Assembly: GCF_014844075.1 (NCBI RefSeq)
Contig: NZ_CP062165.1
Location: 2,418,001-2,482,000, forward strand
Length of the DNA: 64,000 nt
Reading direction: 5' to 3'
Origin: Paenibacillus sp. JNUCC-31
Lineage (GTDB): Bacteria > Bacillota > Bacilli > Paenibacillales > Paenibacillaceae
Translations under genes and position numbers: made by a program
The notes under the pieces: generated by a model
Told to the model about the DNA's origin: nothing
The model's database searches: none
Seen by the model: the letters and a program-made list of their open reading frames with translations, nothing else
In this document: in pieces, positions 1,028 to 35,239 of the stretch
Layout of the letters: each line of letters begins with the position of its first letter
Position numbering within the stretch: position 1 is the first letter of the stretch

Positions 1028-2054
1028 GGTGCATCACTCCCGAGAGCCTAGCGTAGGACCACGAATAAACGACAGTCTCATAAGGAACCAATTGCGGTCC
1101 CTCAGGCAAGCGCAAAGCATCAATTTGCTTTTCTTTTCTGTAGTCCCTGTTATAGATGGTACTGGCGTAACGGTCTCCCCGGTCCGGGAAAATGGCCAAT
1201 ATATTTGTATCTTGAGGGACATTGGACTGTAGCCATTTGGCTACCGCGTAGACCGAACCAGAGGAATTCCCAGCAAAAATTTGCTGTTCTCTTGCCAGAG
1301 CGAGCGTTGCAGCAAACGCTTCTTCGTCGTTCAGCCAGTGCACTTCGTCAACGATCGAATGGTCCACGTTTGGTGCAATTAGGGAATTGCCCAGCCCGCC
1401 TTGCAAACGTTGGGGCCAATCGGGCTGTCCAAAAATAACGCTGCCAATACAATCAACCGCCACCACCTTGAGATCTGGATTGTACCTTTTGAGTGCACGG
1501 GCTGTTCCTGTCATAGACCCGCCACTTCCAACAGAAGCAACCAGGTAATCTACACGTCCAAGATCATTCATGACCTCATGAGCAAGCTCACGATATGCAG
1601 CAGGGTTGTTGGAATTTTCATATTGTCTTGGCCAGTAGGCCCCCGGAAGCTCCTTCATCAATTCGTTGAGTCGCTGCAATCGTGCGCTCTGCCATCCGTT
1701 TGTGCCCATCTGTTCCACAATATCAATCTTGCAGCCTAACGCTGTCAGCTTGGCCAGCGTAATCTGGTCCATTCGCGGATCGGTAACAATATGAACTTCA
1801 TGCCCCAGGCAGGTCCCAACCATTGCAACGCCGCAAGCCATTGTTCCGGACGAACTTTCAATAATGGGAGCTCCATCCTGCAATTGCCCACTGTACTTCG
1901 CTTCCAAAATAATTTGTTTGGCTACGCGGTCTTTCATCCCAAAGGGATTCATCAATTCAAGCTTGGCATAGACATTACCACCGATGATCCGATTATGGTT
2001 TAATTGCACCAAGGGTGTATTGCCTATCGTCTCGATCATGTTTGTGCAAATCAA
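1020..2054 (-). CDS. Cysteine-synthase-like PLP enzyme, likely 2,3-diaminobutyrate branch
   Basis: Fold-type II PLP beta-substituting enzyme of about 344 residues. It shows the family start IGNTPLVQL, the PLP lysine in NPFGMKDRVAK, and the phosphate-binding loop GSGGSMTG. The usual SGNTG substrate loop is SSGTMA, and the C-terminal DSGERY-type segment is DRGDRY, so the substrate probably differs from O-acetylserine. With the GHMP kinase and lyase-like gene at the other end of the operon it fits the friulimicin/pacidamycin scheme, in which O-phosphothreonine is beta-substituted by an amine donor on the way to 2,3-diaminobutyrate (known for those pathways, inferred here). I chose the TTG at 2054 because GGGGGG precedes it; ATG at 2039 and TTG at 2069 are alternatives. 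Making Dap from phosphoserine is another possibility. Confidence 0.85.
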   Translation of the reverse strand: MICTNMIETIGNTPLVQLNHNRIIGGNVYAKLELMNPFGMKDRVAKQIILEAKYSGQLQDGAPIIESSSGTMACGVAMVGTCLGHEVHIVTDPRMDQITLAKLTALGCKIDIVEQMGTNGWQSARLQRLNELMKELPGAYWPRQYENSNNPAAYRELAHEVMNDLGRVDYLVASVGSGGSMTGTARALKRYNPDLKVVAVDCIGSVIFGQPDWPQRLQGGLGNSLIAPNVDHSIVDEVHWLNDEEAFAATLALAREQQIFAGNSSGSVYAVAKWLQSNVPQDTNILAIFPDRGDRYASTIYNRDYRKEKQIDALRLPEGPQLVPYETVVYSWSYARLSGVMHRV

Positions 2055-2098
2055 ACAGCTTCCCCCCAAGCCTTAGTATTCTTTTCTTGCACAACTGG

Positions 2099-5000: not shown

Positions 5001-7144
5001 TCGCTCAGTCTTTGCTGAATGAGTGTTTCTGGATGATCCTCTGCACCCGTTTCCAATGGAATGATCGGGAACTGTAGCTCCAGTTCTTCAACAATGATCG
5101 GTACGGGTTGGTCATTTACAACGGTAAAGGTTGTTCTCAACGCCTCATGCCGACGCATTAATTCGAGCAACGCCTCATGCAACGCCCGGGTATCCACATC
5201 ACCTTCCAATCGGTAAGCCAAAGGCTCGTTATACACCGGATCGAGCGGGTCCATTTGCTGTACAAACCATAGACGTTCCTGGGCAAAAGACATCTCCCGC
5301 TTTTGATCGGCCAGCTTATTGGAAGTAAATAATGTCTGTGTATTCAAGTTCTCGCCCTGGTAACCACGATCTTCAAGATACCTGGCTAGATCCTGCACGT
5401 TTCTTTCGGCAAAGATCAGTGTCAGAGGCAGGTTCGGATCCGTACAGGAACGAAGCAGACTTATAACCTTTGAAGCAGAAATGGAATCTCCCCCAACTTC
5501 AAAAAAGTCATCCATCCGTCCGACTCGTTCAAGCCGTAGGACATCCGCGAACGTTTCAGCGAGAAAAGTTTCCATCTTTGTTTTCGGTTCATTCTCTGTT
5601 GTAGAGTCGCCAACAGCAACCGACGGGATGGGCAAGGCGAGACGATTGAGCTTGCTATTGCTGTTCAGCGGCAGCTCATCCAGTAGCATAATAAAATGCG
5701 GGATCATATAAGCAGGTAGCTTTTCCTGTAAAGCCTCTTTGATTTGTCCCGCCGTTGTTGACTGATCGGGGTACAATACGACATATGCTGTCAGGCGCTG
5801 GATATTGGGAATGTCCTCGCGTAGCAGCACCGCAGCTTCTTTAACGTAGGATTCGGCGATCAACGTGGCTTCAATCTCACCAAGTTCAACACGAATGCCG
5901 CGAATTTTGACCTGATGATCGGACCGTCCCACAAACCCAATGCTTCCATCCTCGTGAAAATAGGCCTGATCCCCCGTTCGATACATTCGTTCATCTGGAA
6001 CAAACGGATCTTGGATGAACACCAAATTCGTGCGTTCGGGATCATTGATATATCCCTTTGATAAACCTTGGCCCGCGACATATAGGTCGCCGGTCATGCC
6101 AGTCTCTACCTTTTGCAAACGGTGGTCCAGAATATAAACCCTGCTGTTGCTCAAAGGTGTTCCAATGGAAATTTGACCCTCTGCCGAGAAGTCCTTTATC
6201 GTGCAGCGATGTAACGTGGAACCAATAGAGAGTTCCGTTGCCCCCCAAAGATTGTATAAGTCTCCAGGCATATTAAGCTGCATGTATCGGCGCCCCATCT
6301 GTGCTGGAAGTGCCTCTCCCCCTCCGAAGCACCCCCTTAAGTGTGTCATGCTTTGGACCTGTTGCGACGTAACTACATCCAGCAATCGGCCAAGCATACT
6401 TGAGACTAGAACAAGGAAAGCGACGTCATATCGTATGACAGCCTCTACGATCGCCTCAGGGTCCCGATGCAACCCTGGCTCAAGAAGTGCGATTCTTCCC
6501 CCAACAAGCAGCGGCCAAAAGATTTCCAGCGCCGCATCATCAAAGGTCAGTGTCGTTTTCTGCAAAACGGTCTCTCCAGGTTCTAGCTGCAAGACCTGCT
6601 GCATGGACAGTAGCGCCGTCACCCAGCCTTGATGCATGTTGGCAACACCTTTCGGCTTGCCGGTAGAACCTGAAGTATAATAAACAGAGACAAGATGATC
6701 CGGACGAACCCCGCTACGCGGCGAGCTGTCAGGCTGATTTTTGAGTTCCTCGAAGAAGGCCGCGAAGACAAGCATCTCCTCTGCAATGTATGAATTATCG
6801 GGCTGCCCGACTTGGTCGGTGATGTAACAACGAGCTCCTGCATCGATCAATACTTGTTGCTTGCGGGAATATGGAGCTTCCGGGTCGAGTGGCACGTAAG
6901 CACCGCCAGCTTTTAATATCCCGAGCAATACCACAATCAGCTCTGGTGAGCGATTCATGCAGACGCCTACTGGTATATCCGGGCCTACCCCTTTTTGGAT
7001 CAAATAATGTCCAAGCCGGTTGGACTGTCTATCTAATTCCTCATATGTAAGGCATGAATCGTTCATGAGGACCGCAATAAGCTGCGGAGTCCGCTCGACC
7101 TGCTGTTCGAAAAGCTCATGAAGGCAAGCATTCGGAAATTCCAA
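2099..7144 (-). CDS. NRPS, A-T-C-A-T (predicted initiating subunit)
   Basis: 1681-residue synthetase. Rough domains: A 1-500, T 520-590 (FFEVGGDS), C 615-1055, A 1070-1570, T 1590-1660 (FFDLGGHS). There is no N-terminal C domain and no thioesterase, so it should start the chain and pass it on. Both A domains carry FDDAA at motif A4 and WGATE instead of YGPTE at A5. My manual pocket codes are DDLVFGLIG and DDVQISTID. The second Asp could bind a side-chain amine, consistent with 2,3-diaminobutyrate made by the operon (inference). The C-domain motif is HHLITDAW, with Ala in place of the usual Gly. The protein ends in an acidic tail, MSDEEVEAMM, like short C-terminal docking motifs. TTG start at 7144 follows GGGAGGGG at good spacing. 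Confidence 0.95.
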   Translation of the reverse strand: MEFPNACLHELFEQQVERTPQLIAVLMNDSCLTYEELDRQSNRLGHYLIQKGVGPDIPVGVCMNRSPELIVVLLGILKAGGAYVPLDPEAPYSRKQQVLIDAGARCYITDQVGQPDNSYIAEEMLVFAAFFEELKNQPDSSPRSGVRPDHLVSVYYTSGSTGKPKGVANMHQGWVTALLSMQQVLQLEPGETVLQKTTLTFDDAALEIFWPLLVGGRIALLEPGLHRDPEAIVEAVIRYDVAFLVLVSSMLGRLLDVVTSQQVQSMTHLRGCFGGGEALPAQMGRRYMQLNMPGDLYNLWGATELSIGSTLHRCTIKDFSAEGQISIGTPLSNSRVYILDHRLQKVETGMTGDLYVAGQGLSKGYINDPERTNLVFIQDPFVPDERMYRTGDQAYFHEDGSIGFVGRSDHQVKIRGIRVELGEIEATLIAESYVKEAAVLLREDIPNIQRLTAYVVLYPDQSTTAGQIKEALQEKLPAYMIPHFIMLLDELPLNSNSKLNRLALPIPSVAVGDSTTENEPKTKMETFLAETFADVLRLERVGRMDDFFEVGGDSISASKVISLLRSCTDPNLPLTLIFAERNVQDLARYLEDRGYQGENLNTQTLFTSNKLADQKREMSFAQERLWFVQQMDPLDPVYNEPLAYRLEGDVDTRALHEALLELMRRHEALRTTFTVVNDQPVPIIVEELELQFPIIPLETGAEDHPETLIQQRLSEEARKPFDLEQGPLIRTVLFKLGEGSHILFINMHHLITDAWSNVIFLDELNILYKAYLDYRPSPLLKLPLQYSDYAVWHKEWIRENGLRKQLDFWKNELSGELPILQIPTDEPRPPIQTFAGDKIHFTLPEQWMSRIQALGRQTEASVYMILQAAFSLMLHRYSGQKDIIVGSPIANRNQHGLEQMMGFFVNTVAIRSQFKGEDSFRVYLQKVKERCLNVYEHQDIPFELLVRELQPERNHAYSPIVQVMFAYQNQLEEMLELGDLTVHPIEVNSKISRFDLTLFVKEAASGQLSCTFEYNTRLYRRATIDRMIKSFTSLMEAILGDPEQSIARLPLLSVEEQQRILFTWNDTFAAFPSEVCLHELFERQAGETPQLIAAIYQNKMITYEELEKRSNMLANYLLLHDLGERSVVGVCVERSLELVVGLMAILKAGAAFVPIDMELPSSRIRHILQDADVKVCLVQEHAREKLTMDEVVLICPDSEWDIIKQQPTSRPIRNVTADSPVSVYYTSGSTGKPKGLINVHRGWVNRMCWMQKHFKLQAGETVLQKTTLTFDDAAVEFFWPLISGGRVALLEPGLHRDPRSIIEACIQYEAVHVQFVPSMLNLVLDELTSDDERRLHKLRSTISSGEALTANTVKRFFAKLPGTLNNTWGATEVSIDSTLHVATSEDMEAEGAVCIGKPIDNNRCYVLDDYLQPVPPGVNGKLYLAGVGLAQGYLNMPERTAQAFIPDPFVPGERMYHTGDLGFYRPDGSLQFIGRADNQVKIRGMRVELGEIEAVLLLHENVKEVVVLVDEDSSNIKRLVAYVVPLDTSADISEELRQMAKDVLPDYMVPSFILLLDRMPLNANGKIDRSQLAKPERLSHYAAASFVEPQTQMEEYLVGIWRELLNMEHVGVEDHFFDLGGHSLLATQIVSRVRRQLKLEVPLREVLLHPTIRQFASRVEEFLYEQIQQMSDEEVEAMMRS

Positions 7145-7166
7145 GCCATTCCCCTCCCTTAATTGT

Positions 7167-8216
7167 TCATGCCAGTGTATCCCTCATATGATGCAATGCC
7201 TCCTCAATCTGCTGTGAGTTGACTCCTACATGAGTCACTGCCCGAATACGGCCATGTCCAAGCTCATCGACGTGTACTCCTTTTTGATGTAATTTCTGTA
7301 CAAAGCTCTCCCACGTAAATCGGGGGTCGGTTACGCGAAAAAAAACGATATTGGTCTCTACAGTCTGAGGATCACATGCAATACCCGGAATGGACGATAA
7401 TCCTTCCGCGAGCCGTTTGGCATTCAAATGATCTTCCGCCAGCCGCGATACCATTTTGTTTAAGGAAACCAATCCCGCTGCTGCAATTATGCCTGCCTGT
7501 CGCATGCCTCCGCCAAGCATTTTGCGATTTCGGTATACCTTTCGAATGAACGCCTCGCTGCCAACAACCATTGATCCAATGGGAGCAGATAAGCCCTTGG
7601 AAAGACAAAACTGGAGGGATTCGGCGTAATCGGCAATCGCAGCTACCGGTATTCCCATTGCTACAGAGGCATTCCAGATGCGGGCACCATCCATATGCAC
7701 AGGGATTTGATGCTCATTGGCAAATGCCCGAATGTCCTCCAGATAAGACAGTGGCAATATTCGTCCGCCCATGCGATTATGGGGATTTTCCAGGCAAAGC
7801 AACCCCGGCAAAGCAAATTGCGGGTCTTCCGGGTCCCGGGGAATTGCCTTTTGCAGGTCTTCGAGATCAAGACGCCCATCAGCTTGGGTGCTGATTGGTT
7901 CGTACATAATCCCTCCACAAACACTCGCCCCCGCTGCTTCATAAATATAAATATCCGACTCATCACCAACGAGTACCTTGGATCCACGTGGGCAATGGGC
8001 CATAATAGAAGCAAGGTTAGCCATCGTGCCGCTGGGCATAAAAATGGCCGCTTCCTTTCCCAGCATTTCAGCTGCCTTCAATTCCAGCTTTTTTACAGTA
8101 AGGTCTTCACCGTACACATCGTCCCCAAGCTCAGCCTGAAACATGGCTTCCAGCATTTCAGGAGTAGGCAGAGTAAAGGTATCGCTGCGAAGTTCAATCT
8201 TGGAAAAATCAGACAT
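7167..8216 (-). CDS. Low-specificity threonine-aldolase-like PLP enzyme
   Basis: 349 residues, the usual length for L-threonine / L-allo-threonine aldolases, with the N-terminal LRSDTFTLPT, the GDDVYGED motif, and the PLP lysine in CLSKGLSAPIG. The family reversibly cleaves beta-hydroxy-alpha-amino acids to glycine and an aldehyde. It lies between the thioesterase-like gene and an NRPS gene with short gaps and an ATG start after GGAGG, so it is part of the operon. It may supply glycine or a beta-hydroxy amino acid, or cleave a hydroxylated amino acid released from the MbtH-A-T/P450 pair, as proposed for nikkomycin-type routes. The sequence does not decide the direction or substrate. Confidence 0.88.
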   Translation of the reverse strand: MSDFSKIELRSDTFTLPTPEMLEAMFQAELGDDVYGEDLTVKKLELKAAEMLGKEAAIFMPSGTMANLASIMAHCPRGSKVLVGDESDIYIYEAAGASVCGGIMYEPISTQADGRLDLEDLQKAIPRDPEDPQFALPGLLCLENPHNRMGGRILPLSYLEDIRAFANEHQIPVHMDGARIWNASVAMGIPVAAIADYAESLQFCLSKGLSAPIGSMVVGSEAFIRKVYRNRKMLGGGMRQAGIIAAAGLVSLNKMVSRLAEDHLNAKRLAEGLSSIPGIACDPQTVETNIVFFRVTDPRFTWESFVQKLHQKGVHVDELGHGRIRAVTHVGVNSQQIEEALHHMRDTLA

Positions 8217-8259
8217 ACCGTCTCCTCCAGACTAAAAGCAAGATGTTCATTTCATGCGA

Positions 8260-9015
8260 TTAAATATAGCGCCTCATCGCTTCGGCAATGGTACTTAGCA
8301 ACTCCATCGGGGCTTGGAGGAAATCATGATGATCTCCATCCAACACTTTGAAGGACGCTTGTCCGTATTCTTTCCAGCCGCCTAATAGGGACGGGTTCAC
8401 CTCTTTGTCTCTATTCCAGCCGATAGCGGTTACCGGAAAAGGAAGAGTCTCGGGGCAATCTTGTTTATAACTGCGATTCGCTTCCAGATCAGAACGCATG
8501 ATTCCGGTGTTCAGCTCAACAATGTCAGGCAAAGCCTTGCCCCCCATTTTATGAATGAGCAATTCGATCTCCACTGCAAGCTCCTGATCATCCAGTTCCA
8601 GAAACCGGCCATAGGGGCCTTCATGGGGTGCGACTTGGGATGATATAAACAAGTGTGACGGCAATGGCCCTCCATTACGCATCAATTGAACGGAAGCCTC
8701 ATAGCTGGGTAACGCCGAACCACAGTGGCCAAAAAACGCAAAGGGACGATCCATATAAGGGCGTAGTGCTTCATTAAAATTCTCTGCAAGTTGCTCATAG
8801 GATGAATAAGTGGGTTCATGAAATCTGTTCTCGCGACCAGGAAGCTGGATCGGGCATACTTCGATCTTGCCAATGAATTCAGGCCAGTGGCGATACATGC
8901 TTGCACCGCAGCCGGAGTAGGGTATACAGAACAAACGTGCTTTGGCAAATGGGGACGGCTCTCTGAGGAGCCATGGATTGTTTTGAATTTCCGCTTCTTC
9001 AATAACGTATTCCAA
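8260..9015 (-). CDS. Thioesterase-like protein with Cys nucleophile (candidate aminoacyl carrier transferase)
   Basis: About 251 residues, alpha/beta-hydrolase of the type II thioesterase family (CIPYSGCGAS near the N-terminus, LPGRENRF). At the nucleophile elbow, where such enzymes read GHSMG, this one reads FFGHCGSAL, so Cys replaces the catalytic Ser. The acid (NRDKEV) and the His (LDGDHHDF) are present. Cys-type members such as SyrC and CmaE move aminoacyl groups between carrier proteins rather than hydrolyse them (known from recall). Its position next to a stand-alone A-T protein, a P450 and an NRPS with a dead A domain supports that role (inference). A TTG start at 9015 sits after GGAG just past the P450 stop; ATG at 9045 would overlap the P450 and has no proper spacing. 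Confidence 0.9.
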   Translation of the reverse strand: MEYVIEEAEIQNNPWLLREPSPFAKARLFCIPYSGCGASMYRHWPEFIGKIEVCPIQLPGRENRFHEPTYSSYEQLAENFNEALRPYMDRPFAFFGHCGSALPSYEASVQLMRNGGPLPSHLFISSQVAPHEGPYGRFLELDDQELAVEIELLIHKMGGKALPDIVELNTGIMRSDLEANRSYKQDCPETLPFPVTAIGWNRDKEVNPSLLGGWKEYGQASFKVLDGDHHDFLQAPMELLSTIAEAMRRYI

Positions 9016-9028
9016 GTTTATCCACTCC

Positions 9029-10270
9029 TTACGATTTTCGTGCATACCCTCGAACAGGCATATGTTTGATGCCGCTAATAAAGTTGGAGCCCAAATATTC
9101 GACGGGTCCCATGATGTCAAAGCGTTCGTAATTCGCGAATAGCTCCTCATACAGCATGGTCATCGTCTGCTTCGCCGTTTTGTGACCGATACAGTGGTGG
9201 GGACCGCTGCCAAAGGCAATGTGCGGATTTGGCGTTCGCCGAATGTCGAAGGTATAGGGATCGGCGAAGATATCCTCATCTCGGTTAGCCGAGCCAAGCC
9301 ACACAACAACAGCATCGCCTTCTTTAATTTGCGTTCCCCTAATTTCAACATCACGCGTCGCGTATCTCATAAAATGACTGGCTGGAGAAGACCAGCGAAA
9401 TACTTCTTCGAGTCCACTGTCCATGCATTCCGGGTGGGAGGCAAACTCACTGTACAGATCCTTTTTGACCAGTTCCAAAAAAGAGATACTGGCAGCATGG
9501 GGTGTAGTGACCGTTGCTCCGAGTAAAATACTGTAACAGTTGGAAATCACGGTCCCCGTATCTATCTTGGCTCCATCCATTTCCACATTCATCAGAATGC
9601 TGATCAAGTCTTCGCCTGGAGAGCGACGACGCTCACTAACGATGTCCAGAAAGTAACCGAACAACTCCCGATGTGCTCGTTGCAGGGTGGCGGTACTCCC
9701 CTCGACCAACATGTATTCTTCATCATCAGGAGCAATGGCCATCGTGGTAAGCTGCGTCAGCATCGGCCAATCCTCTTCAGGCAGATCCAACATGCATCCA
9801 CTCACGGCAATGGACATCTCGAACATGGCACGGGCAAAGTCTACTCCGTCCGCTTCCAAGCAAGGAGATAACAATCTGCGGATGGTCTTGCGAATCTGTT
9901 CCTCATGTTTGTCAATTGAATTGTGATTGAACCCGCGCTGGAGCGGGCGACGAATCTGGGTATGACGCGGTGGGTCTGTGACCGCCATTTGCTTCCTGCC
10001 GGCCGGGTCCTTTGTTCCCAGTAGGTTCACCAAGCTGCCCTGTTCCGAAGTAAATGTGTTGTAGTCTTTTAAAACTTGAATGGCATCTCTATGCTTCGTA
10101 ATGGACCAAAATCCCAGTTCCTCATTAACCTGCTGCCAATGAACAGGCGCCTCACGGCGCATAACGTCCCATACAGCGTAAGGCTCCCCATGGCTATATA
10201 ACCGAGGGTCGAGCAAATTGACTTCGGCTAAATTCACTTGTGATGTATTTGGGGCATTGGTTGTTGGCAT
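9029..10270 (-). CDS. Cytochrome P450, likely carrier-bound amino acid hydroxylase
   Basis: 413 residues, soluble bacterial P450. The heme-binding loop FGSGPHHCIG and the ExxR motif in LEEVFRW are clear. In the I helix the usual acid-alcohol pair is changed: the segment reads LLGATVTTPHA, with Val where Asp or Glu normally stands before the Thr. The gene lies directly after the MbtH-A-T gene, the same arrangement as NikP1/NikQ, where a P450 beta-hydroxylates an amino acid held on a carrier domain. By analogy it probably hydroxylates the valine predicted for the MbtH-A-T protein. ATG start after AAGGAGG. P450 identity is certain; the substrate is inference. Confidence 0.93.
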   Translation of the reverse strand: MPTTNAPNTSQVNLAEVNLLDPRLYSHGEPYAVWDVMRREAPVHWQQVNEELGFWSITKHRDAIQVLKDYNTFTSEQGSLVNLLGTKDPAGRKQMAVTDPPRHTQIRRPLQRGFNHNSIDKHEEQIRKTIRRLLSPCLEADGVDFARAMFEMSIAVSGCMLDLPEEDWPMLTQLTTMAIAPDDEEYMLVEGSTATLQRAHRELFGYFLDIVSERRRSPGEDLISILMNVEMDGAKIDTGTVISNCYSILLGATVTTPHAASISFLELVKKDLYSEFASHPECMDSGLEEVFRWSSPASHFMRYATRDVEIRGTQIKEGDAVVVWLGSANRDEDIFADPYTFDIRRTPNPHIAFGSGPHHCIGHKTAKQTMTMLYEELFANYERFDIMGPVEYLGSNFISGIKHMPVRGYARKS

Positions 10271-10288
10271 GTATCCATCCTCCTTGAG

Positions 10289-12352
10289 TTAGCCTTGTGT
10301 GACCGGTTTGCTATCCTCGATCATGACAGCAAGCTCCGCAACCGTCGGCTTCGTATAAAGGAAGCGGGCAGGTATGACCGTTTCCAGTAAGTTCTCCATA
10401 TTAACGATCAGTTCAGACAGGATCAGCGAGTCGCCGCCAAGTGAGAAGAAGTTGTCGTGAATGCCGACAGGCTCCACCAACAAGTTCTCTCCCCATAGTC
10501 TGACAAGTTCCGATTCCATCGCATTTCTCGGCGCAGTATAGGGTGTGCCCAATCTGCGAGGAGAGCGCACAGCCGCAGGCAATTGTCCCCTGTCTACCTT
10601 CCCGTTCGGCGTTAACGGCAATTCTGCCAACGGCATGATGGCCCATGGAACCATGTAAGGAGGCAACTGCTGACTCAGGTATTCATACAACCCGGTCAGC
10701 TTCCCAGATTCCTCATCTGGAGAAGCGTTGGTCACAACATATGCAAGCAGACGCTTGTTGCCCAACCCGTCCTCTTGTGTTGTAACTACGGCAGCCTGAA
10801 CATCTCCATGTTTGGTGATGACCATTTCGACTTCATCCGGCTCTACCCGGTATCCCTGAATTTTAACCTGTCGATCTGCACGACCGATAAACTCCAAGCT
10901 TCCGTCTTCAAACCACCGAGCAAGGTCCCCTGTTCTCAACATTCGGGCCCCGGCTGTTTTACTCCATGGATTTGGCATGAATCTGCTCGCCGTCTCTGCC
11001 GGATTATTCAGATATCCTCTCGCTAAACCTGCCCCAGCAACGTATAATTCACCCTCCTGTCCCGGGGGCACCGGATTCAGATTCTCATCGCAGACGATTG
11101 CCCACGTTCCGTTGATCGGTGAACCAATCGGGACAGTAGGGTGGGTCGTCATCGTCGTGGTGGTCCAGCAGGCCGAGAATGTCGTATTCTCCGTTGGACC
11201 ATATCCATTGGTGAACGTCAGATGCGGATGGGTTGCCAGAAGCAGCTCAAGGTGTGCAGACGAGATCACATCCCCACCTGCCAACACATGTTTAAGCCCC
11301 TTAAACATATCCAGATAGGAATTCACCATTACCTGAAACAATCCAGCGGTTAGCCATACGGTCGTTACTCCCTCCGTTCGGATCGTTTCAGACAGCAGGT
11401 CCGGACGTATCACTCCGCAATCGTAGATAACCAGCCGCCCGCCATTGGTAAGAGGAGACCAAAGTTCAAACGTGGAAGCGTCGAAAGCGACCGGTGAAAC
11501 AAGCAAAAATACATCATTGGGTGTAAACGAGAAATCCTTGGCATTATCGACTAAACGAGAAACCGCCCGATGCGGTACACATACGCCCTTCGGCGTGCCT
11601 GTCGAACCTGATGTATAACTAATATAAGCCAAGTGCTCTGGTGTCACTTCTGCTTTCTTCCGCCTATGGGCCGAAACAAAAGTCTGTTTGTCATGATCCA
11701 GCAGCAGTACAGGTATCGAATGTCCTTCGAACCGCTCACTGAAGCAGCTTTGAGTAATAACCAGGCAGGGCGAAGCATCTTCAAGGATAAAATTCAGCCT
11801 TGCCTGCGGAACATTTGTCTCGAGCGACAAGTAGCATCCCCCTGCCTTTAGGATGGCTAATAACGAAATCACGAGGTCAAAAGAACGATTGGCAAGAACC
11901 GTAACGATGCTGTCAGGGCCAACTTCAAACTCTGCCAGCCTGTTTGCGAGAGCTTCAGCAGCTTCATCCAGTTCACGGTAAGTCATATGTGTGGATTCAT
12001 AGGTCAGTGCAACGCTATCAGGATTCGCTTGCGCATGGCGTTCGAACAAGTGATGGATGCAGGAAGACGGATTCAAAGGGATGACGCTCCCGCTCCAAAA
12101 TGGGGCTGGCTCCGTTTCCGAAATTTCCTGAATACATCCCTCTTTCACTAAATCGCTGACAAATGAAGGATTAGGCTGCAGGCTTACTGGCCGCATATCC
12201 GTCCAGACGCCTTCGATCTGCTTCAGACATTCCTCGACCGTTCCTTCAAAGCCCGCGTATTCCCAGCCATATGCAAGCTCTCTCTCCACAGGCCAGATAG
12301 AATATTGTCCGTCGCTATTTCTAAGCGTTATATATCGCAATTGGGCTGACAT
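10289..12352 (-). CDS. MbtH-A-T fusion protein, predicted to load valine
   Basis: 687 residues with no C domain. Residues 1-65 form an MbtH-like domain (YSIWPVERELAYGW and VWTDMRPVSL), fused in front of an A domain (about 90-590; YTSGSTGTPKG, GYGPTEN, RTGDLARW, NGKVDR) and a T domain (about 600-680; NFFSLGGDSL). My manual pocket code is DAFWLGGTF, which matches the known valine code DAFWxGGTFK. The fused MbtH part is the chaperone that A domains often need, and the same architecture occurs in NikP1. The start codon overlaps the upstream NRPS stop as TGATG, so translation is coupled. A protein like this holds one amino acid for tailoring in trans, here probably by the P450 encoded next to it. 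Confidence 0.93.
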   Translation of the reverse strand: MSAQLRYITLRNSDGQYSIWPVERELAYGWEYAGFEGTVEECLKQIEGVWTDMRPVSLQPNPSFVSDLVKEGCIQEISETEPAPFWSGSVIPLNPSSCIHHLFERHAQANPDSVALTYESTHMTYRELDEAAEALANRLAEFEVGPDSIVTVLANRSFDLVISLLAILKAGGCYLSLETNVPQARLNFILEDASPCLVITQSCFSERFEGHSIPVLLLDHDKQTFVSAHRRKKAEVTPEHLAYISYTSGSTGTPKGVCVPHRAVSRLVDNAKDFSFTPNDVFLLVSPVAFDASTFELWSPLTNGGRLVIYDCGVIRPDLLSETIRTEGVTTVWLTAGLFQVMVNSYLDMFKGLKHVLAGGDVISSAHLELLLATHPHLTFTNGYGPTENTTFSACWTTTTMTTHPTVPIGSPINGTWAIVCDENLNPVPPGQEGELYVAGAGLARGYLNNPAETASRFMPNPWSKTAGARMLRTGDLARWFEDGSLEFIGRADRQVKIQGYRVEPDEVEMVITKHGDVQAAVVTTQEDGLGNKRLLAYVVTNASPDEESGKLTGLYEYLSQQLPPYMVPWAIMPLAELPLTPNGKVDRGQLPAAVRSPRRLGTPYTAPRNAMESELVRLWGENLLVEPVGIHDNFFSLGGDSLILSELIVNMENLLETVIPARFLYTKPTVAELAVMIEDSKPVTQG

Positions 12353-15300
12353 CAGACCGACTCCTTCGCTTCATGGGTATAGGATTTCAGATACGCTGCA
12401 ATCCGTGCAATATTCGAGGGATTCATCATGGAATAGTGATCCCCGTCCAGCATGATGCTATCTACTTGCTTGGCATAGTTGCTCCAGTCACCCTCCATAG
12501 ACAGAGCACGTTCCTCCGCTTGGGCCTTGAACCAGGTTAACGTACCACCAAACCATTGGGGAACATGCTCGTGCATCGCCCTGTAATTGGATTTGAACAG
12601 AGTATAGAAATGATTCAGATGCTCCTCATCAGGACTCCACTCTTTTTTCCGCTCATCAGAACGATCCCCTATCATTTGTACGCCTGTAAGGTCCTGCAGG
12701 AAATGTTCCTTCCATTCGTTCTCCGAAAGCTCAAACGCTGCTTCGTCATGAGACCTTAGTCTTGCATCAAGCAGCATCAGCATCTCGACCTCTTCTCCCA
12801 CCTGTTCAAGCTGGCAGGCCATTTCATGCGCCACAATACCGCCGAATGACCAACCTAACAAGGCATAGGGTCCTGTTGCCTGCACAGCCCTGATCTGTGC
12901 AATATACTGATGAGCCATATCCTTAATCGAAGAGAAGGAACGCTCTGGCATGTCATAGTTCATGGGTCCGTTCAAATGCTCGTCCTGAATGGCGTAAACA
13001 GGCCATTCCGCTCCCAAAGCCTGTGGAAAAGCGTTATAACATACGATGCTTCCACCTACAGGATGAATGCAATAAAGGGGCGTTCTGGAACCTGAAGCAT
13101 TTAAAGCAACAAGAGATGATGGTTTTGGCTCTCCTGTCGGAGCCTGACTCAGCAGTGTGGCTAACCGCTCGATCGTGTCATACTCTAGAATCGTTGATAA
13201 TGGCAGCTTGCGGTCAAATGCCTGTTCTACTCTGGCCATGAGCTGAATCGCGAGTAATGAGTTACCGCCCAGGTGGAAAAATGAGTCCCTGATGCCTGGA
13301 GCAGCGATTTGAAGAACCTGTTTCCAAATATCCGATAATTGGTGCTCATAGGAATTCCTTGGCGGCTGGAATGCATCATTCAGTTCTGCCACAGGGTCCG
13401 TATTGGGCTGCGGGAGCGCCTTCCGGTCTATTTTTCCGCTAGTCGTTAACGGCATTTTATCAATGAACATCCAATGAGCAGGGATCATATACTCAGGCAT
13501 GCGATTTTTTGAGAAGCTGTACAAGTCTTTGCGAACCAGCGGAGCATTCGGGTTGCTTTGCACGATGCAAGCAACTAGCTGCACATGCTGCCGATTGTCA
13601 CTGGTCGTGTATACCACGCATTCCGCAATGCCGGGATGTTCGCCCAATCTGGCCTCAATCTCCCCCATTTCAATACGATGACCGCGTATTTTGACCTGGT
13701 GGTCTAGACGACCTATATATTCAATAGCTCCGTTCGGAAGATACCTGGCTTCATCCCCTGTTTTGTACAGGCGTGCATTTGGCTCGGTTCGGAGTGGATC
13801 GAGTATAAATCTCTCCGCATCCAATTCCGGCCGGTGATGGTATCCGCGTGCCAGGCAGACGCCGCCGATATACAGCTCACCAGGTACACCGACAGGCACA
13901 GGCAACATCCGTTCATCGAGTATCCGCAGATAGACATTGGCAATGGGATAACCGATTGGAACGTGGATATCTTCCGGTTTGCATGACCAACTGGTTACAT
14001 CAACAGCAGCCTCCGTAGGTCCATACAGGTTATGCAATTCACACGACAGCTTTTCAAAAAATAGTTGTTTTAACATATGCGTAAGTGCTTCCCCGCTGCA
14101 AATGACCCTTTTCAGTGTGGTACATTGCTCTACTCCTCGTTGAGCCAAAAAAGCATGCAGCATGGAAGGCACGAAATGTATCGTTGTAATCTCTTCTTCC
14201 TGAATGAGCTTAACCAGATATTCCGGGTCCTTATGCCCTTCAGGCTCTGCAATGACTAATCCCGCTCCCGAAATCAACGGCCAGAAAAACTCCCATACGG
14301 AGACGTCGAATGTAAATGGTGTTTTCTGAAGCACCCGATCCATTCCGGTTAATCGATATTCTTTCTGCATCCAGAGAAGACGGTTAGCAATCGCTTTATG
14401 CTCGATCAACACCCCTTTGGGTCTTCCCGTAGAGCCGGAGGTATATATCATGTATGCAAGCTGCTCAGGCAGGCACGGGACAATGGGATTCGATGCAGAC
14501 TCGGTGGCTAATTCCTCATGAATCCGTTCCATATACAGAACTGTTCCAGCGTATCCTTCAAATAATGAAGCCCACTTTTCGCTGGTCACGACAAGCCCAA
14601 GATCAGCATCCTGAATAAGCTCCTGAACGAAAACTGCCGGATGATGCGGATGAATCGGTACGTAGGCGCCGCCCGCCTTCAGAATAGCCATCAGACTGGT
14701 GACCAGTTGAGTGGATCGTTCCAAACATATACCTGCCTTCACATCTGGCCCAACTCCATGTTTATGCAAGTAATGAGCTAGCCGATTCGCTTGTTCATTA
14801 CACTCACGGTAGCTTAAGCGTTGACCTTGATAAGCAAGAGCAAGCTGCTCAGGTGTGCTCTCCACTTGCTGCTCGAATAACTTGTGCAGCAGATGGACCT
14901 GGGGAAAATGGTTTTCCGTTTGATTCCAGTTATCTATTTCCTGAAGTTCCTCAACAGACAGTAAGGTGTCGTGATCAGCGACTTCATAGGTATGATGAAC
15001 GATTGCACGGAGCGCCATCTGATAGTATCCGGCAACTCGGCTCATTTGCTCTTCGCTGAACAGCACCTGATCCCAACGGAGCGCCAGCCTTAATTCACCA
15101 CTTTCACCATCCAGCGAAAATTCAGCACCAAATGGAAAACTGTTATCGGCGTATCCCGGCTCCTCAACAATGTGCAGTTTCCCATAGGAACCCAGCTTCT
15201 GCTCAGATACATAGAAATGAGTGAAATTAAAGAATGTCTCAAATAACTTGCCGTTTCCGGTATCCTGTTGGATCTGGGCCATAGGATATCTGCGATATTG

Positions 15301-18300
15301 CAGCATTTCCTTTTCGGTTTCCCACGTTTTTTCCGCAATGGCGGCCCAGGTCCCTCCGTCCAGTTGCATGCGAAATGGCAGTGTATTCAGAAATAAGCCC
15401 AGGGCGCGATCACCATCCTTCTGCTCAAGACGACCGTGGAACAGCACTCCCGTTGTGATGTCCCGCTGATTGGTTAATGTTTTTAAAATGTGTATGTGAA
15501 CGGCCAGCAGCCAGCTCTTGATCGGAATCAGCGTCCTCTGTGCGAGTTCATGCACGTCACGTGAAAGAGATGGCGATATGTCCACCTCCTTGAGCTTCAT
15601 GACGGGAGGAGCTGTATCTGCCGGTTCCCACTGTGGAAGCCTAATTCGGGAAAAGCCGTCCAGTTTTCCCTCCCAGTACTCCTTGTGCTCGGGGGATTGT
15701 AATGCGTTCAATTCCTCTCTCACATATTGCTTGAATGTCGTTTGTAATCGTGGAGCAGGCTCCAATACCTGATCTTGCAAAAGGTGATCCACTGTTCCGA
15801 ACAACTCTGCTGTAAAATGGGCCACACTCCAGCCATCCAGTACGGAATGATGCATGGACACGATCAGTTGAACCCAGTCCTTCGCGCGCTGCAACAGAAC
15901 GACACGCAGGAGCGACTGACTCCAATCAAAGGATGTATCCATTTCATGCTCCACCCATTCCTGAAGCATTTCCTGTTGTGTGTCAGGGTCCATATCGCTT
16001 ACATCTACATACTTGATAGGCAGCTTGCCTTTTGTATGCACCAATTGCAGAGGAAGACTGTAACTCGAGAGATCAAACGTCGTACGCAAGATCGGATGAC
16101 GGTTGATTAACATCTGGAAGGCTTCGTCCCATACTTTCCTATGGAAGGAACCCTTTATGGAAAATTGAATGAGATCATGGTACAACCTGGACCCCGAATG
16201 CAGCTCACTTTGAAACAACATGCCTCGTTGCAGTTGTGTAAGAGGGTACGCATCCTCTATTTCTTCAGGCAGTTTGGCAAGGTCCTCTTCAGGCACCAGA
16301 TCAAACCTCTTGTCTGTAAGCTTGACGATGTCCTGATTCATCAATACATGAGGGGCAAGCTCCCGGATTGTTTGATGAGATAACAAGTCCCTGATACCGA
16401 AATAGAGATTGGCATCTTTGGCAAGAGCAATAATCGACAGCATCCGGATTGAATCTCCTCCACAGACGAAATAATTGTCCTTGACGCCGATCCTGGAAAC
16501 TTCAAGCACAGTCTCCCATATGTTTACCAGGCTCTCCTCAATTGGATTGGCTGGGGGCACATAAGCGGACCGCCTCGACTTATGTTCCGTGTTACTCTGA
16601 AGAAGATCATAGTCTATCTCACCGCTGGTCAATCGAGGCAGTTGTTCCACCCAAAGCAACGTTCCCGGAACCATATATTCAGGGAGCTTGTCCCGCAGAT
16701 CATGCTGAACCTGTTGTACGGGAACAGTCTGCCCAGTCACAGCAACTAGGTAAGCCATCACATACTCAACACCGTATTCGTCTCTCTGTACCTGAATTGC
16801 TGCTTCCTGAACAGCCGGGTGATGAAGGCACGCCATTCGTATTTCATCAAGCTGAACGATATATTCACCTAGCTCCGCTTGGTTATCCAAATGACGTAAG
16901 CATTCGATCTCTCCGTTCGGTAAATAGCGACACATATCGTCCAGACGATATAACCATACACCGGGCTCGCCGTTTACTGAACGATAGCTCCATCGCTCAT
17001 CGAGGTGACTGGCGTGAAACGCTCTTGCATGATCCGAATCCGGCTCGCTCACATGCAGTGTACCCGCGGCACCCATCGGCACAACCTCGCCACTGGCATC
17101 AAGAATATACAGCACCCGCCCAGTTAATGGTGCACCAATTCCTCGATCTGGTCGTTCATATGAATTTCCACTAGCCGGAATGATACGACTACTGACCACG
17201 CCCCCCAGTTCGCTCAGGCTGTTTATTTGAATGAGTTGCGGCTGGTGACGGGTATGACGACCTAACCACCCATTCAATGAAGGTATGGTTATGTTCTTTC
17301 CTTTAATAAAAATCGTACGAAGGTCCAACTTCCCTTTTGCATTGGTTTCATCCAGCCTGATCCAGGCGAGAAATGAAGCCTGAGTTAGTGTAAGACGCGT
17401 TATTTTTTCCTGAATCAGCAGTTCATTCATATATTTAGGTTGATCGGCAATCCATCCAGGCACGATAACCAGTGTTCCTCCATTGAACAACGCTCCGCAT
17501 ATTTCCCATAACGCAAGTTCACTGTCCACTGCATGAAGCATGGCCCATACATCATCCTGATTCAAATCAAACGTTCCCGTTGCCGATTGGGATAGCTGCA
17601 CAATTCTGTAATGAGGGACAGCGACAGTTTGTGAAGCACCAGATGCTCCAGCATTCCAGAACAGATACGCTCCATCATGTGCAGCCACCTGTACCTCAGG
17701 ATTGGCAGCATACGCAGGGATGTCAGGAATCCGTTCCAAACAAAAGATCTCTTGTCCTGCTTGCGGGACTTTGCGGACGTTGTTTTCGTTTGTAACAATG
17801 CATGATACACCTGCATGTTGCAGCATCATAGTATTCCGTGCTACAGGATGCTCAGAATTCAACGCAACGCAGCAGCACCCTGCTTTCCATACGCCCAACA
17901 TACTCACAACGAGGTCTATGGATGGATCAAGCCATAGTCCTACGGCCGTGCCGGGAACAACCCCGTTCTCACGCATATACCACGCAACCTGATTGGCTCT
18001 CTGATTAAGTTCAGCGTAGGTCATTGCTTCACTTTGATCACGAACGGCAATGGTATCCGCTTGCAAGACAGCCCAGTGTTCAAACGAATGATGGCCACAT
18101 GTCGAACTCGGTACTTGGATCTTCGTATCCTTTTGCTGATACAGTTGTTCGTTTATAGACCGCTTCTCTTGTTCATGCATAAAAGGAATATGCCATATTT
18201 GCTGCTCCGTATCCTCCAGAATGCTTTCTATGAGTTGCACATAATGGACAGATAGCTGTTCAATCAGAGCCTCATCATATAAATTCTTTTGGTATTCGAA

Positions 18301-19506
18301 TATGCCATGTAGTCCAGCTGACGATTCCGCAACGTCTAGATACAATTCGAACTTGGCTGTACCCAGATCTAACTCAACCGGCTTAATATCGATATGTGGC
18401 AAATCGAGCTCTAGCTTCGGATGATTCTGAAACGAGAACATCGCCTGAAAGATTGGTGTCTGTCCGAGACTACGCTCCGGGGCCAGTCTTTCAACGAGCA
18501 TATCAAAGGGTACATCCTGATGCTCGTAAGCTTCTAATGCAGTCTTTCGTAGCTGCATCAGCATTTCCCGAAAGGTAGGATTGTCATGCAGACGAGCACG
18601 CAAGGTCATTGTATTCACAAACATCCCAATGACGTTCTCAAGCTCAATGTGATGCCGATTGGCGATAGGCGTTCCGATAATAATATGGTCTTGACCCGAA
18701 TAACGAGCCAGAAGCAATTGGTATACAGCCAAGAGCCCAATATATAACGACGTACCGCTGCTGCTGCATAACTGCGCGAAGCGCTCAGATAGCTGTAGAG
18801 GAATGTGAAATTCAAGAGAAGCTCCTGTATTATCGATCACAAGTGGTTTTGCTGGATCAACAGGAAGATCCAGAACAGGTAGTTCTCCTTCCAGATGCTT
18901 CTCCCAAAATTGCATTTGTTTCTCCAGCCCTTCGCCTTGCAGGCTTTCTCTTTGCCATTGCGAAAAGTCAGCTACCTGGATCGGCAGCTCTGGTAACTCA
19001 GCCTCTTTTCCTTGTCGTCCAGCGGAATACAGCAAACTCAGCTCCCGCATGAAGACAGAATAGGACCAACCGTCCGTAATAATATGGTGCATGTTGATTA
19101 AAAGGTAATGTTCCTGTTCACTAATGGAGTAAAGAACCATCCGGAAAAGGGGGGCCTGTTCCAATGAAAACGGACTGCGTATGTCCCGCATTATCCGCTC
19201 ATTAATTCGCATGACAGCTTCGGTCGGTAATTGAATATGACTGATGACATAGTCCAGTTCGGGAATGATGACTTGCATGATGTCATTGTTCTCCACTGTA
19301 AAATAGGTTCGGAAGGATTCGTGACGCTCCACCAGTTTGTTAATAGAGCGCTGAAGTACTTCGAGATCAACGGGTCCGTCAAGCTTATACAGCAGCGGCA
19401 CATGATAGACAGAAGGATCAGTTATGGTCTCCTGAACAAACCATATTCGTCTTTGAGCAAAGGACGCTGGAAACAAATAATGGTTACTGCTAATCGTTGT
19501 ACTCAA
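12352..19506 (-). CDS. NRPS, C-A(degenerate)-T-C-A-T-TE (predicted terminating subunit)
   Basis: 2384 residues. Rough domains: C 10-450 (MHHIITDGW), degenerate A 475-970, T 985-1060 (FVCGGDS), C 1085-1530 (MHHSVLDGW), A 1560-2050, T 2070-2140 (FFHLGGNS), TE 2160-2384 (GWSFGG, His in DGDHYS). The second A domain has the manual code DVWHISLVD, the serine type. The TE makes this the last subunit, releasing by hydrolysis or ring closure, although its gene comes before the predicted initiating NRPS gene. The second C domain starts YPLTQLQRGML, which resembles DCL/dual-type C domains, yet no epimerization domain is present. The TTG start at 19506 follows AAGGGGA. The TE is intact by motif. Confidence 0.96.
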   Translation of the reverse strand: MSTTISSNHYLFPASFAQRRIWFVQETITDPSVYHVPLLYKLDGPVDLEVLQRSINKLVERHESFRTYFTVENNDIMQVIIPELDYVISHIQLPTEAVMRINERIMRDIRSPFSLEQAPLFRMVLYSISEQEHYLLINMHHIITDGWSYSVFMRELSLLYSAGRQGKEAELPELPIQVADFSQWQRESLQGEGLEKQMQFWEKHLEGELPVLDLPVDPAKPLVIDNTGASLEFHIPLQLSERFAQLCSSSGTSLYIGLLAVYQLLLARYSGQDHIIIGTPIANRHHIELENVIGMFVNTMTLRARLHDNPTFREMLMQLRKTALEAYEHQDVPFDMLVERLAPERSLGQTPIFQAMFSFQNHPKLELDLPHIDIKPVELDLGTAKFELYLDVAESSAGLHGIFEYQKNLYDEALIEQLSVHYVQLIESILEDTEQQIWHIPFMHEQEKRSINEQLYQQKDTKIQVPSSTCGHHSFEHWAVLQADTIAVRDQSEAMTYAELNQRANQVAWYMRENGVVPGTAVGLWLDPSIDLVVSMLGVWKAGCCCVALNSEHPVARNTMMLQHAGVSCIVTNENNVRKVPQAGQEIFCLERIPDIPAYAANPEVQVAAHDGAYLFWNAGASGASQTVAVPHYRIVQLSQSATGTFDLNQDDVWAMLHAVDSELALWEICGALFNGGTLVIVPGWIADQPKYMNELLIQEKITRLTLTQASFLAWIRLDETNAKGKLDLRTIFIKGKNITIPSLNGWLGRHTRHQPQLIQINSLSELGGVVSSRIIPASGNSYERPDRGIGAPLTGRVLYILDASGEVVPMGAAGTLHVSEPDSDHARAFHASHLDERWSYRSVNGEPGVWLYRLDDMCRYLPNGEIECLRHLDNQAELGEYIVQLDEIRMACLHHPAVQEAAIQVQRDEYGVEYVMAYLVAVTGQTVPVQQVQHDLRDKLPEYMVPGTLLWVEQLPRLTSGEIDYDLLQSNTEHKSRRSAYVPPANPIEESLVNIWETVLEVSRIGVKDNYFVCGGDSIRMLSIIALAKDANLYFGIRDLLSHQTIRELAPHVLMNQDIVKLTDKRFDLVPEEDLAKLPEEIEDAYPLTQLQRGMLFQSELHSGSRLYHDLIQFSIKGSFHRKVWDEAFQMLINRHPILRTTFDLSSYSLPLQLVHTKGKLPIKYVDVSDMDPDTQQEMLQEWVEHEMDTSFDWSQSLLRVVLLQRAKDWVQLIVSMHHSVLDGWSVAHFTAELFGTVDHLLQDQVLEPAPRLQTTFKQYVREELNALQSPEHKEYWEGKLDGFSRIRLPQWEPADTAPPVMKLKEVDISPSLSRDVHELAQRTLIPIKSWLLAVHIHILKTLTNQRDITTGVLFHGRLEQKDGDRALGLFLNTLPFRMQLDGGTWAAIAEKTWETEKEMLQYRRYPMAQIQQDTGNGKLFETFFNFTHFYVSEQKLGSYGKLHIVEEPGYADNSFPFGAEFSLDGESGELRLALRWDQVLFSEEQMSRVAGYYQMALRAIVHHTYEVADHDTLLSVEELQEIDNWNQTENHFPQVHLLHKLFEQQVESTPEQLALAYQGQRLSYRECNEQANRLAHYLHKHGVGPDVKAGICLERSTQLVTSLMAILKAGGAYVPIHPHHPAVFVQELIQDADLGLVVTSEKWASLFEGYAGTVLYMERIHEELATESASNPIVPCLPEQLAYMIYTSGSTGRPKGVLIEHKAIANRLLWMQKEYRLTGMDRVLQKTPFTFDVSVWEFFWPLISGAGLVIAEPEGHKDPEYLVKLIQEEEITTIHFVPSMLHAFLAQRGVEQCTTLKRVICSGEALTHMLKQLFFEKLSCELHNLYGPTEAAVDVTSWSCKPEDIHVPIGYPIANVYLRILDERMLPVPVGVPGELYIGGVCLARGYHHRPELDAERFILDPLRTEPNARLYKTGDEARYLPNGAIEYIGRLDHQVKIRGHRIEMGEIEARLGEHPGIAECVVYTTSDNRQHVQLVACIVQSNPNAPLVRKDLYSFSKNRMPEYMIPAHWMFIDKMPLTTSGKIDRKALPQPNTDPVAELNDAFQPPRNSYEHQLSDIWKQVLQIAAPGIRDSFFHLGGNSLLAIQLMARVEQAFDRKLPLSTILEYDTIERLATLLSQAPTGEPKPSSLVALNASGSRTPLYCIHPVGGSIVCYNAFPQALGAEWPVYAIQDEHLNGPMNYDMPERSFSSIKDMAHQYIAQIRAVQATGPYALLGWSFGGIVAHEMACQLEQVGEEVEMLMLLDARLRSHDEAAFELSENEWKEHFLQDLTGVQMIGDRSDERKKEWSPDEEHLNHFYTLFKSNYRAMHEHVPQWFGGTLTWFKAQAEERALSMEGDWSNYAKQVDSIMLDGDHYSMMNPSNIARIAAYLKSYTHEAKESV
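16597..18084 (-). other. Degenerate (pseudo) adenylation domain inside NRPS
   Basis: Residues about 475-970 of the NRPS keep the length and general pattern of an A domain (MTYAELNQRANQVAWYM at the start, LPEYMVPG at A9) in a fully open frame. Every catalytic motif is changed. A3, normally YTSGSTGxPKG, reads FWNAGASGASQTV and has lost its Lys. A5, normally NxYGPTE, reads INSLSELGG. A7 TGD reads LDD. The A8 hinge reads HLDNQAELGEYIVQLDEI. The A10 NGKxDR reads SGEIDYD, so the catalytic Lys is Glu. It cannot be expected to make an aminoacyl adenylate. The following T domain looks intact and must then be loaded by another protein. Confidence 0.9.
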
Positions 19507-27010: not shown

Positions 27011-27021
27011 CTGGTAACCCC

Positions 27022-31809: not shown

Positions 31810-31839
31810 AAATATGCTATTTTGAAAAAGGGTGAGAAA

Positions 31840-34313: not shown

Positions 34314-34477
34314 ATCACGCTAATCTGTCAAGTTCAGCTAATTCTGTAATGAAGCAAAGAATTCAGGCAATCGGCCCTTAATCGTACGATATCAATTCAC
34401 TTCAATCCAAATGGGGGAATTAAAGTTTCTGAAATAACTTACCAAATTATAGAGTTAATATTGAATGGATAAAAACC

Positions 34478-34514
34478 AAAAATGACTGTGCAGAAATCTG
34501 CAACAGTCATTTTT
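34478..34514. terminator. Bidirectional terminator
   Basis: Inverted repeat AAAAATGACTGT / ACAGTCATTTTT with runs of T on both strands, between the kinase gene and the convergent XRE gene. Confidence 0.75.
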
Positions 34515-34519
34515 GTGTT

Positions 34520-35187: not shown

Positions 35188-35239
35188 TTAACGGAAAAAT
35201 TCTGCGTGGTTCATAAATGTTAACCTCAATTAAAAGTAA

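Follow-up and report, generated by a model that had tools for sequence, protein, structure and literature searches.

How does a nonribosomal peptide synthetase module obtain its residue when its adenylation (A) domain is degenerate and its carrier (thiolation, T) domain is intact? The question is raised by a biosynthetic locus of Paenibacillus sp. JNUCC-31 (contig NZ_CP062165.1), which was analysed in a window of 64,000 nt within the 7.55 Mb genome; coordinates given here are positions in this window. On the minus strand, from 28497 to 1020, the locus encodes an argininosuccinate-lyase-like protein, a GHMP kinase, the synthetases N1 and N2, a stand-alone MbtH-A-T protein, a cytochrome P450, a type II thioesterase with a Cys nucleophile (Cys-TE), a GntG aldolase, the synthetase N3 and an SbnA-like pyridoxal phosphate (PLP) enzyme. 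The module in question is the first of N2, in which a degenerate A domain (A*) accompanies the orphan carrier T1. We propose from the sequence that the MbtH-A-T protein, the P450 and the Cys-TE make up a trans-loading cassette supplying residue 5 of a hexapeptide, so that Val would be loaded and hydroxylated, carried to T1 by the Cys-TE, and there condensed and dehydrated. It is the account that we prefer, held with belief and doubt in about equal measure.

A degenerate adenylation domain at position 5

As N3 lacks a first condensation (C) domain and N2 ends in a thioesterase (TE) domain, the likely order of the synthetases is N3, N1, N2, which places A* at position 5. A* reads NAGASG/AS at core motif A3, YRLDD at A7 and SGEIDYD, with the Lys lost, at A10; in a motif reading of the window N2, YGPTE was not found at A5, and the A8 core is likewise lost. 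The specificity pocket is left with the line ELWTFKSVSE, and Asp235 and Lys517 are both gone, so that A* is, on its sequence, nonfunctional. N2 thus has the feature expected of an inactive module complemented in trans, an A domain that is present but has lost its catalytic Lys, beside an intact T domain.

Six proteins of 2370-2384 amino acids (aa), from the 120 matches listed for the A*-T region, were taken as full-length orthologs of N2 and aligned with it (n = 7); the nearest relative among the matches listed, from Paenibacillus sp. QZ-Y1, is 93% identical over that region. The A10 Lys is absent from all seven sequences, one of which has Arg, and the carrier motif DNYFV[C/R]GGDSI and the HHxxxDG motifs of both C domains (C1 and C2) are kept in all seven. 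In the five more distant orthologs the A* core is 44-60% identical to that of the window, versus 58-82% for C1, T1, C2 and the second A domain (A2). The open reading frame of A* has nevertheless been kept, which suggests a scaffold role.

Homologous clusters are found in the Firmicutes (genome G062, P. popilliae, P. nuruki and Thermoflavimicrobium daqui) and in the Actinobacteria (Actinokineospora globicatena and Solihabitans fulvus). The two actinobacterial N2 homologs, 38-40% identical to N2 over window residues ~980-2329, have the architecture C-T-C-A-T instead of C-A*-T-C-A-T, with gaps of 25 and 28 aa from C to T, and in both clusters a homologous A-T/P450/Cys-TE cassette adjoins the A-less protein. 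Because these homologs have dropped the A domain and kept T beside the homologous cassette, the A domain at position 5 is, by this sequence comparison, dispensable while the carrier is retained. In the Actinokineospora cluster (L174), one module of the N1 homolog, in a frame at 4396-10338, likewise keeps a remnant of its A domain: C is separated by 165 aa from T, and C-A-T follows. A second residue may therefore be trans-loaded in that cluster.

The A-T, P450 and Cys-TE proteins

The MbtH-A-T protein and the P450 adjoin each other and are recognised by their Pfam domains (Table 1). In the I-helix of the P450s, most of the variants listed for the window enzyme and 63 cassette proteins read LLGAx[V/A]TT; here a hydrophobic residue replaces the usual acid of the P450 acid-alcohol pair. 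The window enzyme probably hydroxylates carrier-bound Val at C-beta, to judge mainly from its position beside MbtH-A-T and from the presence of PlyR, which resembles NikQ, in the same kind of set in polyoxypeptin biosynthesis (PMC3943440; published systems are described throughout from those parts of the papers that were available to us).

The gene for the Cys-TE probably starts at an internal ATG at 9045, not at 9150, because its closest relative, P0001, starts there. PF00975 is its only match in Pfam, and there is no match in NCBIfam. The predicted model (mean predicted local distance difference test score 91.5) places the Cys at an elbow between strand 102-107 and helix 108-123, and its closest structural neighbours are type II TEs, RifR and RedJ among them. 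The nucleophile is Cys in 49 of 49 aligned TE sequences, that of the window included, and Asp213 and His239 are invariant in this alignment. Cys is likewise found at 80/80 loci of a genome scan, partly by construction since the scan looked for FGHC[GA], or for a second motif, among its patterns, and GHC is present in all of the best 120 of 1055 relatives, which were gathered without a motif filter. The spacing 108-213-239 is close to that of Ser77-Asp184-His212 in the aminoacyl shuttle LgnA; the Ser-Asp-His triad with GHSxG that is typical of LgnA was not found, the window TE reading GHCGS.

A first-pass annotation of this DNA, made from the sequence alone, had already picked out a dead A domain with an intact T domain, the stand-alone MbtH-A-T protein with a valine code and the P450 encoded next to it, and all three are borne out by the losses in A* across seven orthologs, by four Pfam domains above their cut-offs and by the Pfam p450 match. 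It had also described a Cys thioesterase as in SyrC and CmaE. The Cys nucleophile stands. The protein is a RifR-type type II TE by Pfam and fold, and the likeness to SyrC and CmaE holds as an analogy.

A dehydrating-type condensation domain and the predicted product

Independent evidence for the fate of residue 5 comes from the typing of single C domains by PDB search. The top matches of the C2 domain of N2, which directly follows T1, are the C domains of McyA (8jbr) and AmbE (7r9x), the former of which we take to act in dehydration. Its Actinokineospora counterpart gives a similar ranking (McyA 298, AmbE 180, next 110 bits). Three of the other four C domains in the line (all but N1-C1) were compared, and their McyA/AmbE scores are 63/64 bits for N2-C1, 106/79 for N1-C2 and 77/not listed for N3-C. 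Since AmbE C2 removes water from a carrier-bound 3-hydroxy residue (PMC10880069), N2-C2, similar by sequence, probably dehydrates peptidyl-hydroxyvaline. According to the same source, the GGDSI form of the carrier, which T1 has, is tied to dehydrating C domains, and LgnD-C2 dehydrates only when the substrate sits on a GGDSx carrier; such a need would give a reason for a shuttle here.

In the mechanism that we propose, MbtH-A-T would activate L-Val and hold it on its own carrier, as code and domains indicate, and the P450 would hydroxylate the bound Val at C-beta. The Cys-TE would take the aminoacyl group onto its cysteine and pass it to T1, bypassing A*. C1 would join the N1 tetrapeptide to the residue on T1, C2 would remove water to give 2,3-dehydrovaline and condense it with the last residue, probably Ser, and the TE domain of N2 would release the peptide. 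Trans-loading of a hydroxylated Val onto the orphan T domain, as the first-pass annotation had it, is therefore still the best reading, and it is strengthened by the A-less actinobacterial homologs; what changes is the end point, because T1 is followed by a C domain of the dehydrating type and residue 5 is thus probably dehydrovaline and not beta-hydroxyvaline.

The codes along the line are DDLVFGLIGK, DDVQISTIDK, DMHHTSHVVK, DFHYSGAVAK, (Val) and DVWHISLVDK, the last of which we take to be Ser-like, and the predicted hexapeptide is X1-X2-X3-X4-dehydroVal-Ser. By analogy with what we assume to be a pacidamycin-like route, the kinase, the PLP enzyme and the lyase may supply 2,3-diaminobutyrate as X1 and X2. 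The predicted peptide may resemble those of the antrimycin type.

Distribution of the cassette

The cassette was surveyed at 80 genome loci around Cys-TE relatives, drawn with the scan patterns mentioned above, with flanks read up to ±10 kb. At 65 of the 80 loci, genes for both a P450 and an A-T (or T) protein of the stand-alone kind lie close to that for the Cys-TE. The A codes fit DA[LF]W[LIV]GGTFK in 34 of 74 cases and the wider valine-like pattern D[AV][LFMW]W[LIV]GGT[FY]K in 47 of 74; a Val code has been quoted as DALWMGGTFK (PMC3943440). The distances among TE, P450 and A-T proteins co-vary (Mantel r 0.79-0.85 over 63 loci), with the reservation that the loci are related, so that neither the Mantel nor the Fisher values can be read as probabilities in the strict sense.

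C..T pairs without a working A domain make up 34/92 pairs near a Cys-TE (at 31 of the 60 loci having any pair), versus 1/49 in control synthetase regions. The 28 controls comprise 20 Paenibacillaceae TE regions (0/23 pairs A-deficient) and eight actinobacterial regions (1/26); the TE is of the Ser type in 19 of the 20 Paenibacillaceae controls, and that of the remaining one, L124, which has no C..T pair, reads GHCFG. Wider flanks, to ~30 kb where the contig allowed, were read at 24 of the 80 loci; at 23 of these, no deficient pair had been present within ±10 kb. On the wider reading, 12 of the 18 clusters with pairs have a deficient one. Sampling was also begun from the P450: 295 Streptomyces genomes were searched, 83 had a match and 60 regions were taken. 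In this sample the Cys-TE accompanies a stand-alone carrier (12/22 versus 1/12 non-redundant loci, p 0.011).

Many Streptomyces regions (L236-L247) share a stand-alone T protein, a P450 and a Cys-TE (GHCAG or near), often with a separate GHSLG TE. In Fontibacillus panacisegetis (L049) the genes for the stand-alone A-T protein, the P450 and the Cys-TE are immediately preceded by a synthetase frame A-T-C, so that the A-T protein itself may be the acceptor.

A general link between dehydrating C domains and the Cys-TE was considered and rejected. A profile (DHC) was built from the window and L133, L129, L134, L031, L066 and L068; its seven matches after deficient carriers come from five distinct clusters (L029/L133 and L030/L134 are DNA of the same genomes) and are no independent test, because the profile was built from those same clusters. 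Four carriers with a working A domain in cassette clusters are also followed by a C domain nearer to this profile, with weaker scores (260-355 bits).

Alternative explanations

Several observations weigh against the shuttle mechanism. The full trio is missing at 15 of the 80 Cys-TE loci, 27 of 74 cassette A codes are not valine-like, and six of the 18 wider clusters with C..T pairs show no deficient pair, although one of them, L031, has a dead A* with a cut-off C domain. In the sample begun from the P450, the Cys-TE is not tied to an A-deficient module within 10 kb, neither among non-redundant loci (5/10 versus 4/12, p 0.67) nor among all loci (7/18 versus 7/20). Within the window, the terminal TE domain of N2 diverges almost as much as A* does (48-66% identity in the same orthologs), so that A* does not stand alone in changing faster, and the first carrier of N3 also has the GGDSI form yet precedes an ordinary C domain. 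The best solved relatives of the P450 are two CYP125MRCA chains (277 bits), followed by 4l0e (246 bits) and 3mgx (193 bits), which we take to be P450sky and OxyD, enzymes acting on carrier-bound amino acids. Finally, a Cys nucleophile is no proof of transfer, and the proven shuttle LgnA uses Ser.

The rival that survives best, unlikely as we consider it, is that the Cys-TE hydrolyses beta-hydroxy-Val off MbtH-A-T and that the free acid is used elsewhere. By gene order and Pfam the operon holds an A-T protein with MbtH, a P450 and a TE, as does the set NikP1/NikQ/NikP2, in which the P450 is reportedly beta-hydroxylating, the substrate His, and the TE thought to free the amino acid. The three genes also correspond to the known set Qui18/Qui15/Qui14, whose echinomycin TE is thought to release free beta-hydroxy-Trp (PMC3578932), and the authors of the polyoxypeptin study read PlyS as hydrolytic (PMC3943440). 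Release would, however, leave the orphan T1 without an A domain to re-activate the free acid, as none of the five other A domains of the line has a Val-like code, and it sits poorly with the intact state of T1 and of the dehydrating-type C2.

It is improbable, too, that the MbtH-A-T didomain loads or trans-thiolates T1 directly while the Cys-TE merely edits. Precedents exist in Bripiodionen biosynthesis, where BpdD/BpdC combine a dead A domain with a stand-alone A-T protein and deletion of the type II TE was without effect (PMC10956176), and in capreomycin biosynthesis, where the available account has CmnI loaded by the A domain of another module. A mere editor would not be expected to be kept beside the A-T/P450 pair in two phyla and to vary with that pair, as the Cys-TE does; moreover, TEs of both the Cys and the Ser type are encoded in 17 of the 60 Streptomyces regions, a coexistence that would suit a split into shuttle and editor.

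We see a similarly small chance that the shuttle operates and C2 is inactive as a dehydratase, the product keeping beta-hydroxyvaline. A C domain follows in the same frame after 25 A-deficient carriers, and in 18 of these cases it is of another type, so that the cassette does not need dehydration, but a C2 of the window type is clearly nearest to McyA and AmbE. That module 5 is skipped, with T1 never loaded and the peptide passing on, would agree with the nonfunctional sequence of A* but is very hard to reconcile with the T1, C1 and C2 motifs intact in all seven aligned orthologs and with homologs that dropped A and kept T.

Organisation of the locus

Table 1. Features of the peptide locus, with positions in the window
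Feature	Position	Strand	Basis
SbnA/CysK-like PLP enzyme, probable 2,3-diamino-acid supply	1020..2069	-	PF00291; NCBIfam SbnA best but below its cut-off
N3, A-T-C-A-T, modules 1 and 2 (starting)	2099..7144	-	Pfam; sole synthetase of the line without N-terminal C domain
GntG-family PLP aldolase; same operon, outside the Val cassette	7167..8216	-	NCBIfam GntG, 460 bits (cut-off 230)
Type II TE with Cys nucleophile, probable aminoacyl shuttle	8260..9045	-	GHCGSALP in PF00975 protein; model and alignment
Probable triad codons of this TE	Cys 8722-8724, Asp 8407-8409, His 8329-8331	-	Alignment, motif
Cytochrome P450, probable beta-hydroxylase of carrier-bound Val	9029..10270	-	Pfam p450; heme motif FGSGPHHCIG and ExxR
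Stand-alone MbtH-A-T, valine-like code DAFWLGGTFK, carrier GGDSL	10289..12352	-	Pfam MbtH, AMP-binding, AMP-binding_C and PP-binding, all above cut-off
N2, C-A*-T-C-A-T-TE, modules 5 and 6	12352..19506	-	Pfam domains, motif positions
N2 C-terminal TE domain (release)	12400..13080	-	Pfam Thioesterase
N2-A2, intact A domain, code DVWHISLVDK	13432..14877	-	Motif and pocket-code reading, ortholog alignment
N2-C2, dehydrating (CmodAA-type) C domain	14932..16269	-	PDB: McyA 327 bits, AmbE 211, next 134
T1, orphan carrier DNYFVCGGDSI	16327..16554	-	Intact in 7/7 full-length orthologs; GGDSI also in both actinobacterial homologs
A*, degenerate A domain, N2 residues 475-975	16582..18084	-	Core motifs, Lys and Asp gone in window; Lys gone in 6/6 other full-length orthologs
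N2-C1, ordinary C domain, acceptor side of orphan carrier	18154..19470	-	HHIITDG; best PDB matches Txo1/Txo2, weak to AmbE/McyA
N1, C-A-T-C-A-T, modules 3 and 4	19540..26070	-	Pfam domains
GHMP kinase, probable diamino-acid supply	26120..27076	-	Pfam
Argininosuccinate-lyase-like protein, probable diamino-acid supply	27022..28497	-	Pfam

The SbnA/CysK-like enzyme, the GHMP kinase and the argininosuccinate-lyase-like protein are each present in five of the six homologous clusters read. The ~60 kb read of Thermoflavimicrobium showed no aldolase, PALP or lyase gene, and the 20 kb read of Solihabitans no kinase gene. A GntG-type aldolase, an SbnA-like enzyme and an argininosuccinate-lyase-like protein co-occur in L066, L068 with L174, L029 and L030, a cluster type that spans two phyla. 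The aldolase was considered as part of the Val cassette and rejected, as it occurs within ±10 kb at three of the 80 cassette loci, and at a fourth if the wider flank (L174) is included. All four are clusters of the window type, where PALP and lyase genes accompany it; our guess is a role in the diamino-acid branch (e.g. allo-Thr).

Beyond the locus, the window holds housekeeping neighbours at 31822-48685 (a two-component pair, glmS with a glmS ribozyme, glmM, ybbR, cdaA, an ECF-type sigma factor with a zinc-finger protein, and phosphoenolpyruvate carboxylase) and, on the minus strand at 50794-56291, an rRNA operon in the order 16S, 5S, two tRNAs, 23S, 5S, with an extra 5S between 16S and 23S.

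Implications

More generally, and with somewhat more doubt than confidence, we suggest that in Firmicutes and Actinobacteria a distinct family of type II TEs with a Cys nucleophile serves as dedicated aminoacyl shuttles for stand-alone carriers that bear a P450-modified amino acid, often Val, and that in one cluster type of both phyla the shuttle feeds a dehydrating C domain to give dehydrovaline. The polyoxypeptin-type TEs now called hydrolases may be members of this family. If this is right, GHC would mark out as transferases many TEs whose annotation is that of ordinary type II enzymes, there would be a portable means of placing hydroxylated or dehydro-branched amino acids at a chosen position, and the rare residue dehydrovaline would have a route open to testing. 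The natural series from a dead A domain in Firmicutes to an absent one in Actinobacteria, beside homologous cassettes, would then show the outsourcing of an assembly-line site.

Comparison with known systems

The NikP1/NikQ/NikP2 set apart, the locus is best placed among systems that move or modify amino acids on stand-alone carriers. SyrC and CmaE, whose nucleophile is reportedly Cys, carry out aminoacyl transfer between carriers, as is proposed here, but the window TE is a RifR-like type II TE. Hydroxyvaline chemistry is reportedly found in zorbamycin biosynthesis. A CmaE-like homologue is described for the zorbamycin system (PMC8748450); WS5/WS20 and RthD are proposed shuttles in the accounts available.

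Among sets of adjoining carrier, P450 and TE genes, Qui18/Qui15/Qui14 share with the window the A-T protein, the TE and the P450, which is beta-hydroxylating in that set, but act on Trp (PMC3578932). Polyoxypeptin PlyQ/PlyR/PlyS (PMC3943440), of which plyQ, plyR and plyS are each essential, and aurantimycin ArtL/ArtM/ArtN (PMC5031334), both likened here by their description, differ in giving 3-hydroxyleucine. In cryopeptin biosynthesis, CrpA/CrpB/CrpC are proposed to lead from Val through hydroxyvaline to dehydrovaline with modAA C domains; CrpA is, however, of the metallolactamase family, and the part of the account available notes no stand-alone A-T protein or shuttle (PMC12181424).

The closest parallels are two. 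In the legonindolizidine system LgnA/LgnB/LgnD (PMC8748450), LgnA takes Thr from the stand-alone A-T protein LgnB onto its Ser77 as an aminoacyl-enzyme and hands it to the A-less carrier LgnD-T1; the window likewise has a stand-alone A-T protein and a protein of type II TE fold beside an A-dead module, an acceptor carrier of the GGDSx form and a next C domain of the dehydrating type. It differs in the Cys and in the predicted Val, and the available part of that account mentions neither a hydroxylase nor a degenerate A remnant. In the cystobactamid system (PMC7966384), the oxygenase CysJ acts on a carrier-bound amino acid, and CysB moves Asn from the stand-alone module CysH to module 3 of CysK, whose A domain has lost the A10 Lys; here Asn, CysJ, an AMDH domain and the SyrC/CmaE-like CysB set it apart from the window, and no dehydrating C domain is noted in the part available. 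The first-pass view of the combination as non-standard has accordingly to be tempered, since LgnA/LgnB/LgnD and CysH/CysJ/CysB/CysK do nearly the same. Our literature search, in which subscription papers were mostly out of range, found no paper in which a P450 is combined with a type II TE shuttle of the Cys type and a dehydrating C domain. The logic of trans-loading is thus already known, and it is the combination of these three at one locus that looks new.

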